64,000 nucleotides of DNA from Phycisphaerae bacterium (GCA_029260165.1 JAJDDT010000044.1:62001-126000), one strand, 5' to 3'; positions 46,007 to 55,692 are shown, counted from the first letter of the stretch. The notes: a model not told the origin generated them from the letters alone. Translations and numbers: made by a program.

Positions 46007-46867
46007 ATGAGCGGGCCGACGAAAATCCTGGTGGCGGGCTGTGGAATGACGACGCCGTGGGCAACGGGTGTGGGACGTGACATCCTCGCGGGTCGTTCCC
46101 GTGGGACTCGAGATACAACCCAACCGTTTGACGTCGTTTCCGAGGAATGTCGCGACCGTTATCCGGACCTTGGGGCTGAACTGAAGCGCGACAAAGGTGC
46201 GTGGATGACCGCCGTCGCGATTCGCCATGCGCTCGAAGACGCGGGAATCTCGTTGACAGATTTCGACCCGCAGCGGGTCGGGCTTGCGTTGGGAAGTGCG
46301 TTTGCGGGGCAGCTCGGTATGATCGCGTTCGCCGAGGAGGTGCGCGATCAGTCGCCGCGATTCGTCAGCCCCATCAATTTTCCCAAGACCGTTGGAAACT
46401 ATGTGGCCGGTGCGATGGCGAGGGCGTTCAAATTCACCGGTCCCAACGTGACGGTCGCATCGGGAGCGGCGTCGGGGTTGGCGGCGATTGCGTGCGCATG
46501 TGGTGTGCTCGCTGATCGGGACGCGGACGTGATGATCGCCGGTGGCTACGACCTGCTGTCCGAAGCGCTTGTCCGTGGGATGTCGGAAAAACACCCGTAC
46601 GCGGAGGGGGCGTGTACGTATGTGTTGCTGCGTGAAAGCGATCCGAACGTGAAAACGTGTCGTGGTCGGATCGTCGAATGGTCTGATATGCGTGGCGACG
46701 GGAAGGAGAAGAACGCCGTTGAAACCGTCGGATACGCGTTCGCAGCCGAGACCGCCGTGCGACTTATCTGTTCACTCGAAACCGCGACGCCGGGAAATCC
46801 CGCGATCGTTTCCGCGACGGATCAACCGTCGTCGACAAGGCTCATCGTCGAATCGTCGGACGATTAG
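46007..46867 (+). CDS. Truncated, Cys-less beta-ketoacyl synthase-like protein
   Basis: A 286-aa protein matching only the N-terminal half of a thiolase-fold ketosynthase. VAGCGMTTPWATGVGRD, VGLALGSAFAGQLGMIAF and GPNVTVASGAASGLAAIACA align with KS blocks. The nucleophile position reads Ala where active enzymes have Cys (STACASG type), and the C-terminal half with the catalytic His residues is absent. It is therefore not a condensing enzyme by itself; it may be a chain-length or scaffold partner. It lies on the opposite strand beside the ElbD-like lipid operon. ATG 46007 has AGGAACAAACC upstream. The stop overlaps the convergent 46864 gene by 4 bp. Confidence 0.75.
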   Translation: MSGPTKILVAGCGMTTPWATGVGRDILAGRSRGTRDTTQPFDVVSEECRDRYPDLGAELKRDKGAWMTAVAIRHALEDAGISLTDFDPQRVGLALGSAFAGQLGMIAFAEEVRDQSPRFVSPINFPKTVGNYVAGAMARAFKFTGPNVTVASGAASGLAAIACACGVLADRDADVMIAGGYDLLSEALVRGMSEKHPYAEGACTYVLLRESDPNVKTCRGRIVEWSDMRGDGKEKNAVETVGYAFAAETAVRLICSLETATPGNPAIVSATDQPSSTRLIVESSDD

Positions 46868-47148
46868 GTGTTCCACACGGGCCGGGTTGACGCCGCAAAC
46901 CGTACCTGCGTGAACAGATACCGCCAACGTGCGTACAGGGTGCGAAGTTTGACAAGCGACTCGCGGGGGATGCGGTCCTCGAATCGCGACGAATAGGTTT
47001 GCACCAATAAATCGTTCCAACCAGCCAACGATGCGAGATTGAGCCTCGATCGGCCAACGGTTGAATTCAGAATCTCGAAGGCTTCACTGGTGATCGCATC
47101 CAGCTCGTGCTTGAGATGGTTCACCGATTCGGTCGTATGTTTCGTCAT
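46864..47148 (-). CDS. Small conserved-looking helical protein
   Basis: A 94-aa soluble protein, predicted largely helical (VNHLKHELDAITSEAFEILN, then LVKLRTLYARWRYLFTQVRF). No family recognised. The ATG at 47148 has AAGGAG about 9 nt upstream, good evidence of translation. It is the last gene of the minus-strand lipid operon or a separate unit: a half copy of the 82-bp element sits in the 160-bp gap from the lipid kinase. It converges with and overlaps the ketosynthase-like gene. Confidence 0.6.
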   Translation of the reverse strand: MTKHTTESVNHLKHELDAITSEAFEILNSTVGRSRLNLASLAGWNDLLVQTYSSRFEDRIPRESLVKLRTLYARWRYLFTQVRFAASTRPVWNT

Positions 47149-47166
47149 GAAAACGTGCTCCTTATC

Positions 47167-47200
47167 GGGTGGCCCATGGCTTCAGCCGTGGGGGAGTCGA
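47167..47200. repeat. Half copy of the 82-bp double-hairpin element
   Basis: GGGTGGCCCATGGCTTCAGC and following bases to GAGTCGA, a single 34-bp half-site. The hairpin GGC-TTC-AGCC keeps pairing with a changed loop. Confidence 0.75.
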
Positions 47201-47308
47201 ATCATCGTCCGCGATCGGCTCAAACAACGCGAGTCCATGGTGCATCACCATTCGACTATCCCATCGCGAAAGGCGGCGGCCCCGCGGCCGCTCCCTGGAT
47301 TTATCACG

Positions 47309-48232
47309 TTAACCGTTCGGCTGAAAAACCCGAATCGCGTTCGGGACAATATCGATCATCGCCGGCAATCGTCCGACCAACTCGCCATCCGCCCAAATCT
47401 CCTCAGCCGCCGCATTGTCGGTGTCCACCGGTTCAATCGTCAGCGAGCGGGTTCGGTGCATTTGAACCTGAGGCAATCTCGTGTGTGCGGCTGACAACAC
47501 ACGCGGAATCAACGTCATAATCTTGTACTTCGCGATGGCAGACACCAGGCAGATGTCAAACACCCCGTCGGTCGGATCCGCATCCGGTGCGATCCGCAGC
47601 GCCCCACCATAACACGCGGTGTTGGCTGTGGACAGCATGAACACCGGTCCTTCATAGTCCCCAAAATCGCCCGATACTTTCAGCCGCGGTGTTCGGTAGC
47701 GCAGGAGCACCTGCATCGCCCCGTAAATGTAGGAGAGCGTGCCGCGCAGCGGCATGGTCATGTCGTTGACATACCTCGTGACGACGGCGTCGAATCCGAC
47801 CGCGGCGATGGAGCAGAAATAGCGATCACCGATCCTGCCAAGGTCCACCGGACGAGGGATTCCGGAGAGCAGGGCAGCCGAGATGCTCGCGTAGGCAGCC
47901 TTGATACCAAGCGCCCGTGCGAAATCATTGCACCGTCCCGACGGTGCCAACCCCAACACCGCACGGTCGCTCCCGCAGTGCATGATCGCGTTGGCGGCTT
48001 GTTGAATCGTCCCGTCGCCGCCGCACGCCACCACCCCAATCGGATCGTCGGCCGTTGCAGCGGACACCGCCTCGGTGACCAGCCGTTCCGCATCACCTGG
48101 CGCCTGGGTCGGACGGATGTCGCAGGACAGCTTACGATCGCGCAACGCGTCGCGAATCCGCGTCGCCAGTCGCAACGCCTTGCCTTTACCCGCCGTTGGA
48201 TTGCACACCACAATGTATGAACGAGGATTCAT
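47309..48232 (-). CDS. Diacylglycerol/lipid kinase (YegS/DgkB-like)
   Basis: A 307-aa lipid kinase of the DAGK catalytic family. It begins YIVVCNPTAGKGKA and has the nucleotide-binding VVACGGDGTIQQAANAI and LGLAPSGRCNDFARAL, where most members have GTxNDFAR. The C-terminal beta-sandwich includes MLSTANTACYGGALRIAPDA. It likely phosphorylates a diacyl- or alkylglycerol. It sits 18 bp after the zinc dehydrogenase in the ElbD-like operon, which supports a lipid substrate. Confidence 0.88.
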   Translation of the reverse strand: MNPRSYIVVCNPTAGKGKALRLATRIRDALRDRKLSCDIRPTQAPGDAERLVTEAVSAATADDPIGVVACGGDGTIQQAANAIMHCGSDRAVLGLAPSGRCNDFARALGIKAAYASISAALLSGIPRPVDLGRIGDRYFCSIAAVGFDAVVTRYVNDMTMPLRGTLSYIYGAMQVLLRYRTPRLKVSGDFGDYEGPVFMLSTANTACYGGALRIAPDADPTDGVFDICLVSAIAKYKIMTLIPRVLSAAHTRLPQVQMHRTRSLTIEPVDTDNAAAEEIWADGELVGRLPAMIDIVPNAIRVFQPNG

Positions 48233-48250
48233 CGATGTCGGCCCGTTCCG

Positions 48251-49540
48251 CTAAATCCGAAAGACCGTTTTGACATGCCCGCTTTGTCCCGTGAAAAGGG
48301 ACGCTCGCACGCCGTCGCGAAATCGTTCCAACGGAAACGGATCACTCAACAGCGGTGTCAACTTGCTACCACAAACCTCCAGCATCCGAAGCGCCAACGC
48401 ACAGGAGTGCATTGTGCCAGCCTCTGACACCGGGGTCGCTCCGGTCGTTTCCATACCATAGGCGTAGGCTGCCTTCAGCGTCAGCTCCTTGAACCAGATG
48501 GCTGTCCAGTCGATGTTTGAAGGAATCCCGGGCATTCCCAGGAGCACCATCGTCCCGCCACCGGTCGTGAATCGCACCGCGTCATCGATGCTCTGCGACG
48601 AACCGATGCAATCGAAAGACACATCCGCACCCCCGATCACGGTCGGCTTGCCGATCTCGGGATAATGCAACTCCGCCTCAAGCTCCTTTGCCCACGTCGC
48701 ATACCCGGTTTTCGCATCACGCCCGGAAACGGGCGACAGGAGCACCTCCGCGCCGAGTCGCGTCGCATGCTCGCGTTGATGCTCATACTTGGCCACCGCG
48801 ACGATTCGCGATTTGCATCCAAACCCCCGCAACGCCGCGATTGTCAACAACCCGATCGAACCGCATCCGATCACCAACACCGTATCGCAATCGCGAGGCA
48901 ACGCACGCAAAACACCGTGCACAACGCACGCTAGAGGTTCGGTCAGGACTGCGGCCTCGTCCGACACGCCATCCGGCACAAAATGAAGCTGACTGCGATG
49001 GGCGACAAAGCCGTCCGACCACGCACCGCCGGTATCGCGACAATACCCCGTTTGAATACCGGCTGACAGACACCCACGCGTGACGTTCGCGCACAACCCG
49101 TTTTGCCCGCGGGCACACGCATCACAGAGCGGCTCAATCCCGCGAACCACGCACCCGAGCGCGGGTTCCAGAATCACCCGATCACCGACCGACATCGTCG
49201 CCAGCGCGTCACGATCCTCAAACGCTGACACCCCGCCACCAACCTCCGCCACCGTCCCGACGACCTCATGTCCAAAGACAAACGGCGAGGAGGTCAGCGG
49301 TGAAAAATACGGACTGCCCTTCGAGCAGATCACGCTCAGGTCGGAACCGCAGACACCCGCCAGCGTCGGCTTGATCCGAATCCACTCGTCCCCCGGCAAC
49401 GCCTGCTCCGCAATATCCACCAGCCTGGCTGTCTGCAACGCGCGCAGAGACCCGGTCGCCCAGCGCGCCGCTCGCCTCGGACCCGCCAGCTTCATCACCG
49501 CATATCGCGGAATACTCTTCTCAAAAACGACCGCCCTCAT
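48251..49540 (-). CDS. Zinc-binding alcohol dehydrogenase family protein
   Basis: A 429-aa medium-chain dehydrogenase. The catalytic zinc site is AGVCGSDLSVI and GHEVVGTVAEVG. A structural-zinc-type Cys cluster is visible (LCDACARGQNGLCANVTRG). The NAD(P) Rossmann loop is VIGCGSIGLLTIAAL. It is longer than the usual 340-380 aa because of an N-terminal extension of some 45 residues. The stop/start overlap with the HAD gene (ATGA at 49537-49540) shows coupling. In the myxobacterial elb locus a dehydrogenase also neighbours ElbD, which I recall rather than checked. Role: probably reduction or oxidation of a lipid-linked intermediate. Confidence 0.85.
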   Translation of the reverse strand: MRAVVFEKSIPRYAVMKLAGPRRAARWATGSLRALQTARLVDIAEQALPGDEWIRIKPTLAGVCGSDLSVICSKGSPYFSPLTSSPFVFGHEVVGTVAEVGGGVSAFEDRDALATMSVGDRVILEPALGCVVRGIEPLCDACARGQNGLCANVTRGCLSAGIQTGYCRDTGGAWSDGFVAHRSQLHFVPDGVSDEAAVLTEPLACVVHGVLRALPRDCDTVLVIGCGSIGLLTIAALRGFGCKSRIVAVAKYEHQREHATRLGAEVLLSPVSGRDAKTGYATWAKELEAELHYPEIGKPTVIGGADVSFDCIGSSQSIDDAVRFTTGGGTMVLLGMPGIPSNIDWTAIWFKELTLKAAYAYGMETTGATPVSEAGTMHSCALALRMLEVCGSKLTPLLSDPFPLERFRDGVRASLFTGQSGHVKTVFRI

Positions 49541-50310
49541 GATCCTGATTCAACGTTTTTCCAGATGACCTGTTTCCAACCACGCTCCGCTGCGATTTTT
49601 TTCAATTCCGCATCACCATTCACCACCACCGGATGTCCGACCGACCCGAGCATCGGCACGTCGGCCACGCTGTCACCGTACGCATAACTGCACGTCAGGT
49701 CGATCCCGTGCGTTTGGGCATAATCCCGCATCTGAACAGCCTTCTCCTCGTCACCGATCGGAACGCCATCCAACGCTCCGGTGAAAACACCATCACGCTC
49801 GATCAACGTCCGCGCCACCACACCAATGCGATCACCCCCATCACGATGCGCATCGTCGTCAATCAGTTCAGACAAAAACCGCGCCAACGGTGCGATGATA
49901 AAATCAATCGATCCCGTGACAAGCACGACACGCCGACCGGCACGCAGGTGTTCACCCACGCATCTGGCAGCCTCACAAAACAGGTGCGGTTCAAGCAATT
50001 CATCAAAACACGCGTCGGCAGCGCCCTTCACCAGGAACGCATCCAACCCGGCATAATTACGGTAAAATGCGACGTTCATACGCGAGCGGTTTACCCGATC
50101 AAGTATCAGATATCGCACGCACCGCAACCAGAACAGCCTCTTCCACAACGGAAAAAACGCGACGCGGATTCCCCCAGCCTGTCTCGACAAATATTCGCGG
50201 AAATAGACGTATTGATGCACGATGTGCGTCGAAACCAACGTCCCGTCAACGTCGAAGAACGCAGCCGATCGCGATTCGGTTGTCGTATCCTCCGCGGAAT
50301 CAATTGGCAT
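49537..50310 (-). CDS. HAD-IB family phosphatase
   Basis: A 257-aa HAD-superfamily phosphatase of subfamily IB (SerB-like). Motif I is AAFFDVDGTLV, motif II is LVTGSIDF, and motif III/IV is YGDSVADVPML. A cap of helices lies between. Such proteins fused or linked to PlsC acyltransferases act on phospholipid intermediates, e.g. removal of phosphate from lysophosphatidic or phosphatidic acid; here the gene overlaps the ElbD-like acyltransferase gene by 11 bp. ATG 50310 gives the compact form; the frame extends 16 codons upstream. Confidence 0.87.
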   Translation of the reverse strand: MPIDSAEDTTTESRSAAFFDVDGTLVSTHIVHQYVYFREYLSRQAGGIRVAFFPLWKRLFWLRCVRYLILDRVNRSRMNVAFYRNYAGLDAFLVKGAADACFDELLEPHLFCEAARCVGEHLRAGRRVVLVTGSIDFIIAPLARFLSELIDDDAHRDGGDRIGVVARTLIERDGVFTGALDGVPIGDEEKAVQMRDYAQTHGIDLTCSYAYGDSVADVPMLGSVGHPVVVNGDAELKKIAAERGWKQVIWKNVESGS

Positions 50311-53300
50311 GACTCGCCCGTCGCGATCGCCCCAGCGACTCCACCGCCGACTGAACAATTGCGGTCAGTTCCTTATACGCAGCATATCGCGACTCAAAAT
50401 CAGGCAATGATTCGCGGTCCATCGGATGAATCGCCTCACCGATACTGATGCGAATCAATCCCGGGCGAATCAGTCGCCCACCCTTCGGAAGAAGATCAAA
50501 CGAATTGTGAATATGAACCGGAACGATCGGCACGCCCGCCTGCACCGCCAACAATGCCACACCGATCTTGAAGGGCTGAATCTCACCGGTCACCGACCGC
50601 GTCCCTTCCGGGAATATCAACATCGGATTCCCCGCCGTCAACGTCACACCGCACAGTCGCAATCCCTCAACACCGTCCGCCGCACGGTCAAACGGAATCG
50701 TGTCGCAAATATCACCGAAAAACATCGACTTCAATCGCGTATTGAAGAAATAATCCTTCGCCCCCGCGATGTAACAACGACGGCCTGTCTTCCGCAACGC
50801 TCTGTTCATCGCCGAAAGCACCGCGCCCGAATCCAGATGCGATGAATGGTTGGCCGCCAGGACAAACGCACCCTTCCTGGGGACCTGCTCCAATCCATGC
50901 GCCTCCACGCGAATGTAACTGTTAAACAGCACACCAATCCCGCCACGAACCACCCACCGTACAGGTACCAACGGAATCGGTGTCTTTCCATTCGCACCCG
51001 CCCGCTTGCTCAGCCCGGATAAAACCCGGCGCGGTGATCGACTTTTCCTGCCAGCCACACCAACCGGCGCACGGTTGCCGACAAGAGCGAACAGATCGCT
51101 CACCCGACCGACACGAACCGCCACCTCATCATTCAGCGCAACCCCATACTGCTCCTCAACCTCGCTGAGCAGCTCGATTTTCATCAAACTGTCAATACCC
51201 AGGTCCAGCAGCAAATTGTCCTCGCCGCGAATTTCATGAGGCTCACGCTTGACGAGCTTCGCAACGGTCTCCCGAACCCATTGTTCGTTCGGAAGGCTCA
51301 CGTTATCCAGCGGCGTATCATGCAGCGCAGCCTTGCTCGTCCGCGACGCACTCGGGCGACGCTCCGGACGCTCCTGATCCAGCAGGCGACGCATCACCTC
51401 CGGACGCTTCACCTTCAAGCTCGTCGTTCTTGGCAAATCCTCCGTCCAGAAATGCGTGTTCTGAATCCGCTGATAACTGGGGATTCGCTGACTGATCCGC
51501 GCGATCCTGTCCCGCACACCCGACTCCACCGCCGAACGATCGCTCTCCGCCACACCGTCCAGGTCCAGCACGATCACCGCATGCACCGATTCACCAATGC
51601 CGTCCGAATTCGGCATCCCCAATACGCACATCTCCTTAACATCCGACAACCCGGTGTAGTGCGCAGCCACCTCATCCGGATAAACATTTTTGCCCGCCGC
51701 CGTGATGATCACGTCTTTTGTTCTGCCGGTGACGTAAACAAAACCCATCGCGTCACGCTTGCAAAGGTCCCCCGTCTTGAACCAACCATCCACGATCACG
51801 TCGGCCGTCGCCTTTTCATTTTTGTAATAACCCGCCATCACGTTCGGACCGCAGACCCACAATTCCCCGACCCCGTTTTCGTCCTGATTGCGAATGTCCA
51901 GATCGATTTCCGGCAATGGCAACCCGACCGAACCCGCCTTCGGTCCACCCGCGGGATTGACCGTCACCACAGGCGTCGTTTCCGTCAACCCATACCCTTC
52001 ATACACGGGAAATCCGAGCCTTCTGAACCCGTGAAACAACGACGCGGGCAGGGCGGAACCACCGCAGACAAACATGCGCAATCGCCCACCGAACCTCTTG
52101 TGCACCGCGCCAAACAACGTCCGCCCCATCGCCACACTGCTCCGGTCGCTCAACCATCCCAACAGCCTGAACATCATTCGCGTCGCCCGACCGGATTGCT
52201 CGACGCTGCGTGTGATACCATCGTGAAACATGCTCAACAGCTTCGGCACGACCATCATGATCGTCGTTCCCGTCGCCTGCATCGTCGAAATAATCTCAGG
52301 CCCCGTCAGTTGCTCAATATAGGTCACCGTGGACGCATACGAAATCGGCACCAGAAAACCGCCCGTAAACTCAAAAACGTGGTGCATCGGTAGAACGGAC
52401 AGAAACTGGTCATCCGCCTGCACCGGTTGGGCATGTACCAGCGATCGCGCGTTCGACAGGAAATTTCGATGACGCAGCATCACACCCTTTGGCGCCACCG
52501 TTGTCCCGGACGTAAACACGATCGAGGCTATATCCTCACCCGATACGGTCACAGGAGCCGGACCCGGGTCACGGCTCGTCCCCGGCGGGGGAACAAACGT
52601 TGCGTCCATCACAGCCATTGGCAGTGGATTCGCCCCGTTTCGTTCGGCGATCGCATCTCGAATTCCGTCGATCTCCTTCGACCCGACGCACATCAGCTTG
52701 ACATCCGCAAACCGAGCCATCTCCACAACGTCCGCCGGCAATATCTGCCGATCGATCGGCACGACCGTCAACCCGCTTCGCATCGCAGCCAGATAGGTCA
52801 ATCCCCATTCCGGGCAGTTTTCGCAGCAGATCGCGATATGGTCGCCCTCGATCAACCCATATTCCTCATACCGCCGTGCAATCGTCGCCGTCGTCGCCAA
52901 CGCCTCACCATAGGTGTACCGAATCCAGCGATTCCCACGCCTGACCTGCAACGCAATCCGCGACGGGTAGGCCTTGGCAGCGCTCTCGAAAACCTCGAAA
53001 ATCGTCTCACCACGCAACGAAGCCAATACCCTCATCGGCGACGGGGCATCAGGCGACTCGTCTTCCACGGCTTGTTCCGCCGCCAGCATCGGAGCCTCCA
53101 GCTCCATACCCGCCCCCAGCACGAAATGACGAACCCCCGGAACATGCCGGTGAACGACGTACTCATGCCAGTCGATCCGCTCAACATCGAACGGGAACAA
53201 CGCCTGATCCTCCGGCGACATCCGCTCGAACACCGCACGCAACCTGTCATCCCGATACCGACAATCCAAATGCGTATACGGAGCGTAAATCTTCACAAAA

Positions 53301-54628
53301 TAGAGCAACTGGGCTATCTGGGCTTCCGAGGACGCCAGCTTCCTGCGATAACCGTTTGCGAGATTGGTAGATTTCAGGAACGACCGTAGTTTTTGCACCC
53401 GCGCCTGACGCTTTTCCCACCGTTTGACAAACTGATCTTTCAAAACCGTACGCATCGTCGTCACCCGGATGGGACGACCAGCCTCATCGCGCATCGGACG
53501 ACGTCGAAACGCCTCGCGCACCCCGTCCGTAATCAGCCGGATGCGCATCGGATTCCGACACCCCGACCCACACTGGAATATTTCCAGGCTTCGCGACTTC
53601 CTGCCCGCAGGCAGCGTCGCGATCATGGCGTTCGCAACAAAATCCACCGGAATCAGATCCAGCGCGATGTCCGGGTCCGCCGGGAATTCCTTCAATTTCC
53701 CCCGACCGAACGCCAGAATCAGCGGGTCCGCCATCCGCAAACCGTCGATCCACCCCGGCGCAGGTTCATCGTAGCTGCCCTCGATGATCGCCGGTCTGAA
53801 AAGAACCAACGGCACGTCACCTCGATCCCGCGCCACGAATTGCTCAGCCAACCACTTCGTAAACGTGTAGGTATCGTTCCAACCGTTTCGGGCGGAATAG
53901 TCCATCCCAAGATCGATCAGCCTTTTGCGCAAACTCCCGCCGTTGGTGGCGCAGTCTTTCTCGACCCTTGCCACCTCTTCGTGTAGTTCTTTCAGGGTTC
54001 CATCCAGACTGAACGACCCGTTGGATTCGCTACCACCGTTTTCTTGCGATTCAATATACGAACCAACGGTATGCCCGGCGGGCAGCAATGTTTCCGGAAT
54101 ATCGCCTGTTTGCACGCCGCTGACGTAGCACGTCGAAACATGCAGAAAAGGCACATTTCCGCAGTCCCCGGCGAACCGCAGCAGTCGGCGGGGCCCCTCG
54201 ATATTCAACGCCAACGCCATGTCCAGTCGTTCATCGAACGTCACCGTGGCAGCACTGTTGACGACGAGGGACACCTTCGAGGCCAACTCGCGGTACGCAG
54301 ATTCATCAAGCCCGAATCGGTCCAGCGTCAGATCCCCGGAGATGACGGTCACGCGTTCGGCGATCTTTTCATCGAATCCCGGTCCCCACGCAGCCCGCAG
54401 GCGATCGAATGCGTTTCCGCCGAAAACCTCCCGTCGAGCGCGATGTTCCGCACCAACCCCATCCCCACGCGGACGAATCAGCAGGAAAAGCTGACCGATT
54501 TCGGGAACCGCGCGCAGCAGCTTCTCGACGAACACCTTCGCCAGAAACCCCGTTGATCCGGTGACAAAGATCGATTCGCCAGCCAATCGGTCGGCGATGC
54601 GCTGCTCGTTTTGTTCGGTGCTTGTCAC
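50300..54628 (-). CDS. ElbD-like fusion: acyl reductase, AMP-ligase, carrier, PlsC acyltransferase
   Basis: A 1442-aa multi-enzyme. Residues 1-480: NAD-binding fatty-acyl reductase of the male-sterility type, with FVTGSTGFLAKVF and the catalytic Tyr/Lys in YTFTKWLAE near 254. Residues 540-1090: AMP-forming acyl ligase with IVFTSGTTVAPKG, GYGLTETTP, and the terminal Lys region DVIITAAGKNVYPDE. Residues 1110-1190: carrier domain with LGIDSLMKIE, whose Ser (about 1146) takes phosphopantetheine. Residues 1215-1442: PlsC/LPLAT acyltransferase with NHSSHLD and FPEGTRS. This order matches, as I recall it, ElbD, the multifunctional ether-lipid enzyme of myxobacteria. All active-site motifs look intact. 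A fatty acid would be activated, loaded, reduced to an alcohol or aldehyde, and joined to glycerol-phosphate. Other option: wax-ester or unusual glycerolipid synthesis. Confidence 0.88.
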   Translation of the reverse strand: MTSTEQNEQRIADRLAGESIFVTGSTGFLAKVFVEKLLRAVPEIGQLFLLIRPRGDGVGAEHRARREVFGGNAFDRLRAAWGPGFDEKIAERVTVISGDLTLDRFGLDESAYRELASKVSLVVNSAATVTFDERLDMALALNIEGPRRLLRFAGDCGNVPFLHVSTCYVSGVQTGDIPETLLPAGHTVGSYIESQENGGSESNGSFSLDGTLKELHEEVARVEKDCATNGGSLRKRLIDLGMDYSARNGWNDTYTFTKWLAEQFVARDRGDVPLVLFRPAIIEGSYDEPAPGWIDGLRMADPLILAFGRGKLKEFPADPDIALDLIPVDFVANAMIATLPAGRKSRSLEIFQCGSGCRNPMRIRLITDGVREAFRRRPMRDEAGRPIRVTTMRTVLKDQFVKRWEKRQARVQKLRSFLKSTNLANGYRRKLASSEAQIAQLLYFVKIYAPYTHLDCRYRDDRLRAVFERMSPEDQALFPFDVERIDWHEYVVHRHVPGVRHFVLGAGMELEAPMLAAEQAVEDESPDAPSPMRVLASLRGETIFEVFESAAKAYPSRIALQVRRGNRWIRYTYGEALATTATIARRYEEYGLIEGDHIAICCENCPEWGLTYLAAMRSGLTVVPIDRQILPADVVEMARFADVKLMCVGSKEIDGIRDAIAERNGANPLPMAVMDATFVPPPGTSRDPGPAPVTVSGEDIASIVFTSGTTVAPKGVMLRHRNFLSNARSLVHAQPVQADDQFLSVLPMHHVFEFTGGFLVPISYASTVTYIEQLTGPEIISTMQATGTTIMMVVPKLLSMFHDGITRSVEQSGRATRMMFRLLGWLSDRSSVAMGRTLFGAVHKRFGGRLRMFVCGGSALPASLFHGFRRLGFPVYEGYGLTETTPVVTVNPAGGPKAGSVGLPLPEIDLDIRNQDENGVGELWVCGPNVMAGYYKNEKATADVIVDGWFKTGDLCKRDAMGFVYVTGRTKDVIITAAGKNVYPDEVAAHYTGLSDVKEMCVLGMPNSDGIGESVHAVIVLDLDGVAESDRSAVESGVRDRIARISQRIPSYQRIQNTHFWTEDLPRTTSLKVKRPEVMRRLLDQERPERRPSASRTSKAALHDTPLDNVSLPNEQWVRETVAKLVKREPHEIRGEDNLLLDLGIDSLMKIELLSEVEEQYGVALNDEVAVRVGRVSDLFALVGNRAPVGVAGRKSRSPRRVLSGLSKRAGANGKTPIPLVPVRWVVRGGIGVLFNSYIRVEAHGLEQVPRKGAFVLAANHSSHLDSGAVLSAMNRALRKTGRRCYIAGAKDYFFNTRLKSMFFGDICDTIPFDRAADGVEGLRLCGVTLTAGNPMLIFPEGTRSVTGEIQPFKIGVALLAVQAGVPIVPVHIHNSFDLLPKGGRLIRPGLIRISIGEAIHPMDRESLPDFESRYAAYKELTAIVQSAVESLGRSRRASHAN

Positions 54629-54737: not shown

Positions 54738-54764
54738 ATGTTAAACATTGTTCGCAATTGTCAA
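54738..54764 (-). promoter_or_regulatory. Candidate promoter of the ElbD-like operon
   Basis: On the minus strand: TTGACA (54764-54759), a 15-bp spacer, TAACAT (54743-54738). The spacer is short but the -35 is perfect. The 11-bp palindrome ATGTTAAACAT (54738-54748) overlaps the -10 and could be an operator. Confidence 0.4.
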
Positions 54765-54870
54765 GCAGTCGGCGCGTCAAAGGTTGCGTGTTTTTGCCGG
54801 TCAAGTGAAACTCCCGGCTGTCGATGCCCTCGGGATGGACATTGCCACCGGATCGACGCGGAGAATGACC

Positions 54871-55692
54871 ATGACCAATCGCACCGTCCAAATCGGAAAA
54901 ATCATCATCGGACCCGGGAATCCCCTTGCCCTCATCGCAGGCCCCTGTGTGATAGAATCCCGCGACCACACCCTCAGAATCGCCGACGCCATTGCGAGAA
55001 TCTGCCGATCGATCGATTTTCCGTTCGCTTTCAAAGCCAGCTACGACAAGGCCAACCGCTCCAGTATCAACAGTTTTCGCGGTCCGGGTCTCGAAAAAGG
55101 GTTGGCCATCCTCGCCGAGATCAAAAATGAGCTGAATTTGCCCGTCGTCTCCGATATTCATTTACCCGAACAGGCCTCCCCGGCTGCGGCTGTCCTCGAC
55201 TGCCTGCAAATACCCGCGTTTTTGTGTCGCCAGACCGATCTTCTCGTTGCGGCGGGGAATACTGGAACGTGCGTTAATGTTAAAAAAGGTCAATTCATGT
55301 CGCCCGAGCAGATGCGGCAAGCCGTTGACAAGATCGATTCGACCGGAAATCGCAACATCGCGCTGACCGAGCGTGGGACGTTTTTCGGGTACAACCGGTT
55401 GGTCAACGACATGACCAGCCTTGCGTTGATGCGGGAATGGGCACCGGTCGTTTTCGACGCAACCCACAGTTGTCAGTTTCCAGGTGGTGGCGGGACCGAA
55501 ACGACGGGACAAAGCCATTTCAGCCCGTTGCTCGCGAGATCCGCGGTGGCTGCGGGTTGCGACGCACTGTTTATCGAGGTCCACAACGACCCGCCCAACG
55601 CTTTCAGTGACGCTGCAACGGTATTGCCGCTGGATGAACTTGAGGGGGTGCTCACGACGTGCAAACGCGTCGCGGACGCGGTCGCGGGATAG
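54871..55692 (+). CDS. kdsA: Kdo-8-phosphate synthase KdsA (Cys, metal-dependent type)
   Basis: An aldolase joining phosphoenolpyruvate and arabinose 5-phosphate to Kdo 8-phosphate, for LPS inner core; implies an outer membrane with Kdo. 273 aa from ATG 54871, behind GGAGA with a 6-nt gap; upstream frame extends 41 codons without family features. Blocks: ALIAGPCVIESRDH, AFKASYDKANRSS, PVVSDIHLPEQA, RQTDLLVAA, CVNVKKGQFMSPEQM. GPCVIES has Cys at the position that is Asn in the E. coli enzyme; this Cys marks the class II, metal-dependent group. It diverges from the lipid operon and ends 1 bp from the convergent STN gene. Confidence 0.93.
   Translation: MTNRTVQIGKIIIGPGNPLALIAGPCVIESRDHTLRIADAIARICRSIDFPFAFKASYDKANRSSINSFRGPGLEKGLAILAEIKNELNLPVVSDIHLPEQASPAAAVLDCLQIPAFLCRQTDLLVAAGNTGTCVNVKKGQFMSPEQMRQAVDKIDSTGNRNIALTERGTFFGYNRLVNDMTSLALMREWAPVVFDATHSCQFPGGGGTETTGQSHFSPLLARSAVAAGCDALFIEVHNDPPNAFSDAATVLPLDELEGVLTTCKRVADAVAG

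Follow-up and report, generated by a model that had tools for sequence, protein, structure and literature searches.

Ether lipids of bacterial origin are in wide use as biomarkers in environmental work, and which organisms make them is uncertain. The closest described system to the one reported here is the elb operon of Myxococcus xanthus (MIBiG BGC0000871; PMC9131029). ElbD, its central enzyme, is one protein with fatty-acyl reductase (FAR), acyl-CoA synthetase (ACS), acyl carrier protein (ACP) and acyltransferase domains in that order, as published in PMC9131029 and PMC9426513. It is needed genetically for ether lipids in M. xanthus and acts there without AGPS (PMC9131029). ElbD-like gene cluster families that share this core architecture, with hydrolases/dehydratases and oxidoreductases on their flanks, occur in sponge Acidobacteriota and Poribacteria (PMC9426513), and ElbD-like genes have already been counted in metagenome-assembled genomes (MAGs) of Planctomycetota (PMC11868695). 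Here we describe an ElbD-type operon in a stretch of 64,000 nucleotides from a Phycisphaerae bacterium (GCA_029260165.1 JAJDDT010000044.1:62001-126000), hereafter the window, in which coordinates are counted unless another contig or locus is named. In its relatives this operon is accompanied by a homologue of the nickel-dependent enzyme LarA. The ElbD architecture itself is known; what differs here is the set of accessory genes, namely a zinc dehydrogenase, a lipid kinase and LarA in place of the SDR genes of M. xanthus.

Architecture of the operon

The operon is a single unit on the minus strand (54628–47309) consisting of four genes. The first, with a GTG start, encodes the ElbD-type multidomain protein of 1442 amino acids (50300–54628), and is followed by a HAD-IB phosphatase of the ElbB-like class (49537–50310, with an ATG start at 50310), a zinc-dependent medium-chain dehydrogenase (ZnDH) of the polyol/threonine type (48251–49540; PF08240/PF00107) and a YegS/DAGK-type lipid kinase (47309–48232; PF00781 and PF19279). 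In the sequence, the ElbD and HAD-IB genes overlap by 11 bp and the HAD-IB and ZnDH genes by 4 bp (ATGA), and 18 bp separate ZnDH from the kinase. The coordinates and spacings had been given correctly, with every gene in its place, in an original prediction made by a model from the sequence alone. Its assignment to a planctomycete-type genome also held: a scan of genome contigs returned planctomycetes only, and the nearest named genomes were Phycisphaerae MAGs, one of them at 81% identity. The genes of this planctomycete version form a compact set with translational coupling and could be transferred to a laboratory host.

The Pfam domains of the ElbD-type protein follow the published order, bearing out the predicted ElbD-like fusion. 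A reductase part (NAD_binding_4, residues 22–335, and Sterile, or FAR_C, 441–504) precedes a ligase part (AMP-binding, 547–935, and AMP-binding_C, 987–1072), a PP-binding carrier domain (1116–1180) and an Acyltransferase/PlsC domain (1240–1373). The likeness to M. xanthus ElbD (Q1DC43) is drawn from this domain order. Over residues 11–507 the protein aligned with a fatty acyl-CoA reductase of solved structure (7eoz; E 2e-83), and the FAR half is a full, FAR1-like fatty-acyl reductase. Seventeen homologues share 48–82% identity with the window's protein, and the catalytic residues of all four domains are intact; invariant among the homologues are Y254/K258, S707–K714, K1072, S1147, H1261xxxxD1266 and the PEGTR motif at 1340–1344. 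Of 36 genomes in the window's family, 29 contain an ElbD-like protein, complete or, where a contig ends, in fragments.

More distant matches were of another kind. Weak class-wide matches in four genomes (G069, G074, G145 and G065) proved to be acyl ligases, one with an ACP–PlsC extension, and the operon is absent from these genomes. Plasmids were also considered as a source of the operon and rejected: the best match there was a protein of Rubrobacter radiotolerans, on plasmid NZ_CP007515.1 (locus L148, 12001–14595), which has the AMP-ligase, ACP and PlsC parts, lacks the FAR domain and stands without the other partners.

Conserved partners and gene order

The HAD-IB assignment is based on PF12710 (E 1e-26) and on TIGR01490, which scored above its cut-off. 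The residues D36, D38, T148, K206, D229 and D233, numbered from an upstream TTG, are at least 95% conserved over 24 loci, and catalytic residues of the dehydrogenase and kinase reach the same level. The nearest solved structures to the ZnDH are a ketose reductase (1e3j) and a xylitol dehydrogenase (7y9p); C64, H91 and E92 as well as the structural cysteines C130, C139, C142 and C150 are conserved among relatives. The lipid kinase scored above the cut-off of TIGR00147 and matched DgkB (2qv7; E 2e-23), with a GGDG motif that is conserved at 19 loci.

Gene order in other planctomycetes, which the original prediction had proposed to map, was conserved across genera. In one Phycisphaerae family, about 27 genomes have the phosphatase and ZnDH genes directly downstream of ElbD, the overlapping HAD/ZnDH junction recurs in 20 of the 24 loci measured, and a lipid kinase is present at the ElbD locus in about 25 genomes; the order ElbD–HAD–ZnDH–kinase is therefore far beyond chance. 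The kinase, predicted as an addition to the known elb locus, is thus real and conserved. About 14 relatives have, in addition, a separate PlsC gene just upstream of the operon.

Compared with M. xanthus, where the HAD phosphatase gene elbB also lies beside elbD, the phosphatase is a parallel, and the two operons probably have a role in alkyl-ether lipids in common. The accessory sets differ, because ZnDH stands where M. xanthus has the short-chain dehydrogenase/reductase (SDR) genes elbA and elbE. No SDR/epimerase gene resembling elbE was found next to elbD in the window or at the locus in the ElbD relatives examined, and ElbA likewise has no counterpart at the window's locus; ZnDH and the lipid kinase are found there instead. 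The relatives differ further from the elb operon by LarA and the separate PlsC. The sponge families, besides belonging to other phyla, differ in that no LarA or kinase partner is reported for them in the passages of PMC9426513 that were consulted.

Two ElbD-less genomes of one genus, G004 (locus L055, 3496–14607) and G034 (L056), carry a cluster of similar functions in unfused form: a HAD–FAR fusion, a FAR/SDR protein, a polysaccharide pyruvyl transferase-like protein, two acyl ligases, an enoyl-CoA hydratase, a DAGK-type kinase and PlsC. G004 has neither LarA nor a DUF2229 protein.

A LarA-like protein accompanies ElbD

In 17 relatives, a protein of about 530 amino acids with a Lar_N (lactate-racemase N-terminal) domain is encoded downstream of ZnDH, either between ZnDH and the kinase, where the contig extends that far, or directly after ZnDH. 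In an eighteenth genome (G016), the gene for this operonic type is on a separate contig. The window's genome (G000) has no LarA in the operon, but a divergent homologue, about 36% identical, is located on a different contig (C50:22664–24181), and the partner is for that reason invisible in the window. The four operon genes of the original prediction stand, while LarA, the most informative extra partner, was absent from its set.

Within the family, a LarA-like protein is present in 29 of 29 ElbD genomes, exactly one in each, and in none of the seven ElbD-less genomes (Fisher 1e-7). A class-wide sample of 198 genomes gave the same pattern (11/11 ElbD genomes versus 0/187 others), and no ElbD genome lacking both types of LarA was seen among those examined. 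Plain co-occurrence is weaker than these numbers make it appear, because the ElbD genomes are mostly one clade and because the family of p94, a 94-residue protein encoded beside the operon in the window, has the same distribution. The argument for LarA rests instead on adjacency and repeated replacement. The operonic and unlinked types (the latter in 12 of 30 ElbD genomes) form two separate clades with long stems, never coexist, and swap at least eight times on the ElbD tree. One such swap separates sister genomes of a single genus with 90% DNA identity: LarA occupies its operonic spot in G029, whereas in G216 no LarA gene stands between ZnDH and the downstream sequence and the unlinked type is encoded on another contig. 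That exactly one LarA is always present in spite of repeated replacement points to a need of the pathway for a LarA of either type.

In an alignment of 18 LarA sequences, the pincer lysine K206, the nickel ligand H222 and the first catalytic histidine H131 were invariant. Where L. plantarum LarA has its second catalytic histidine (His174), both types have a shortened segment without any histidine. We therefore call the protein LarA-like, a predicted member of the Ni-pincer family with a Lar_N domain and a single catalytic histidine, and make no claim of racemase activity. Among solved structures, the operonic type is closest to 9q2u/9q3k and 9q3j (profile E 3e-61 and 2e-47), ahead of L. plantarum LarA (2e-15). 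These structures represent the single-His subfamily (LarA_Bw and LarA_Sp; PMC12611868, with groups lacking His174 described in PMC7583248), in which the same residues are kept and lost, although the His/Asn-bearing segment is shortened in the operonic LarA described here. The subfamily is an orphan tentatively tied to carbohydrate metabolism by gene context (PMC12611868), with glycolysis and sugar genes nearby in place of the lipid operon found here, and an earlier survey considered that LarAs without His174 might catalyze another hydride-mediated reaction instead of inversion (PMC7583248). The ElbD operon offers a first strong genomic partner for single-His LarA homologues. Of the genes for the nickel-pincer nucleotide (NPN) cofactor, LarC and LarE were searched for and found in G000 (LarC, E 5e-154; LarE above cut-off); their presence is only permissive, since almost all relatives have both. 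No close LarA was found in a plasmid search and no LarA relative in viral contigs, and none of the papers searched mentions both lactate racemase and ether lipid.

Relation to other ether-lipid routes

PlsA/PlsR and Ger, for which production of bacterial ether lipids has likewise been proposed or demonstrated (PMC8788747, PMC10087280, PMC11868695), are BcrAD/DUF2229 proteins unrelated to ElbD and occur mostly in relatives without ElbD. Across 36 relatives, which do not form a phylogenetically independent sample, DUF2229 was detected in one of 20 ElbD genomes versus 14 of 16 genomes without ElbD (Fisher 4e-7). No protein of this type (BcrAD_BadFG plus DUF2229) was found in G000. Such near mutual exclusion is expected if the two are alternative routes to one lipid class, and the distribution suggests a non-orthologous replacement of this kind, with the caveat that a role in ether lipids is not proven for every DUF2229 protein.

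Proposed pathway and alternatives

Starting from what the sequences display directly (the order of domains, the intact active sites, the conservation of the operon, its obligate co-occurrence with LarA and the near mutual exclusion with PlsA/Ger), we infer both the product and the order of steps. The locus is probably a planctomycete-specific version of an ElbD-type operon for alkyl-ether glycerolipids, in which the phosphatase, ZnDH, LarA and kinase remodel the glycerol backbone. The ligase of ElbD would activate a fatty acid with ATP to acyl-AMP and load it onto the carrier domain, from which the FAR domain would produce a fatty alcohol or aldehyde and the PlsC domain would transfer an acyl group to a glycerol acceptor. 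The HAD enzyme would strip phosphate from the glycerolipid; ZnDH and LarA, the latter by Ni-pincer hydride transfer, would oxidize and reduce the exposed backbone position around ether bond formation; and the lipid kinase would re-phosphorylate the alkyl(acyl)glycerol, returning it to normal phospholipid synthesis. The pairing of a phosphatase with a lipid kinase in one operon suggests that the key step acts on a de-phosphorylated glycerolipid that is later re-phosphorylated.

The exact reaction assigned here to LarA and the dehydrogenase is doubtful and is the weakest point of the scheme. Also tentative is the proposal that the single-His LarA carries out a hydride transfer required for the ElbD-dependent ether bond, with ElbD supplying the acyl and alkyl chains and the phosphatase, ZnDH and kinase exposing and re-capping the glycerol. 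If this proposal is true, the NPN cofactor would have its first role in lipids and the single-His subfamily its first pathway. The link between an orphan subfamily of nickel-cofactor enzymes and bacterial ether-lipid synthesis is potentially important and could give a new handle on how the ether bond is made.

Several observations weigh against an ether-lipid operon with LarA as a partner. The genomes are from uncultured organisms, in which an ether-lipid product is predicted from genes, and Pontiella has ElbD homologues but was found to have no ether lipids (PMC11868695). From what is known of their chemistry, these families do not in themselves account for formation of a C–O–C bond, and M. 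xanthus ElbE, an SDR that matters for ether lipids in that species, is without a counterpart at the window's locus. The window's own LarA lies outside the operon. Part of the co-occurrence reflects inheritance within a clade: a LarC tree groups the ElbD-less family members with outgroups, the ElbD genomes being mostly one clade, and the p94 family, mostly unlinked, also co-occurs with ElbD.

In an alternative view, the operon makes a different lipid derived from fatty alcohol, for example an alcohol-containing ester, a wax-like ester or a non-glycerol polyol lipid. The FAR domain would then make the alcohol and PlsC the ester, while ZnDH, LarA and the kinase would work on a sugar-like or polyol backbone. 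The ZnDH is closest to ketose reductase and to xylitol and threonine dehydrogenases, solved single-His LarAs are linked with carbohydrate metabolism (PMC12611868), an ElbD homologue is no guarantee of ether lipids (PMC11868695), and AGPS, a known ether-forming enzyme, was found neither in the operon nor, as far as the search went, in the genome. We nevertheless consider this unlikely, given that the domain order is that of an enzyme genetically needed for ether lipids (PMC9131029), that PlsA/Ger-type ether-lipid genes are nearly mutually exclusive with ElbD in these relatives, and that the PlsC and DAGK partners are of glycerolipid type. A route through an AGPS-like enzyme, as in mammals, in which ElbD would do no more than provide fatty alcohol and acyl groups, would fit the partnership of a FAR1-like reductase and an acyltransferase with AGPS in mammals and in the MXAN_1676 operon of M. 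xanthus (PMC9131029). It is very improbable here: no AGPS-like protein was found in the window's genome, which is 100% complete and whose sole match to PF02913 (FAD-oxidase_C) is not AGPS-sized but a 960-residue fusion with 4Fe-4S domains, and M. xanthus ElbD works without AGPS (PMC9131029).

LarA might also have no functional tie to the operon, having been kept by common descent in one clade, with the insertion between ZnDH and kinase being incidental. The largely single clade of ElbD genomes, the matching distribution of the p94 family and the frequency of the unlinked type are all compatible with this. It is nonetheless improbable, since two deeply diverged types replace each other eight times on the ElbD tree, including between sister genomes, with exactly one always present. 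Overall, the original prediction is borne out as an observation and partly supported in its interpretation: the ElbD architecture, the planctomycete assignment, the phosphatase and the kinase stand, and the corrections concern the accessory set, the LarA partner and a ketosynthase fragment, described below.

Genes flanking the operon

The p94 gene (46864–47148, minus strand; L104–L123) encodes a protein whose AlphaFold2 model is helical (pLDDT 86) and gave no significant fold match when compared with the PDB. Its adjacency to the operon is confined to the window's subclade (G000, G001, G021, G030 and G015). In other ElbD genomes its homologues are the C-terminal domains, ending in TRPxWN, of unlinked proteins of about 200 residues; p94 thus belongs to a C-terminal domain family with unlinked members, and was rejected as a general operon component for most genomes. 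Its predicted status as an addition to the locus consequently applies to the subclade and not to the other ElbD genomes. In about 12 relatives, the genes for these longer proteins follow that of a cyclase/prenyltransferase-repeat-like protein.

Beyond p94 lies a ketosynthase-like gene (46007–46867, plus strand) that contains only the N half of the ketoacyl-synt domain. The original prediction had counted this fragment among the additions to the locus, but it is not part of the operon, because it is convergent, because the active-site cysteine is replaced in all 12 sequences aligned, and because the family is present in the ElbD-less relatives G007 and G026; it is also missing from several ElbD genomes. 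This short, Cys-less family (L068–L078) is widespread in the same Phycisphaerae family. On the other side, a KDO-8-phosphate synthase gene (54748–55692, plus strand) is divergent from the operon, as it is in G001, G021, G030 and G020.

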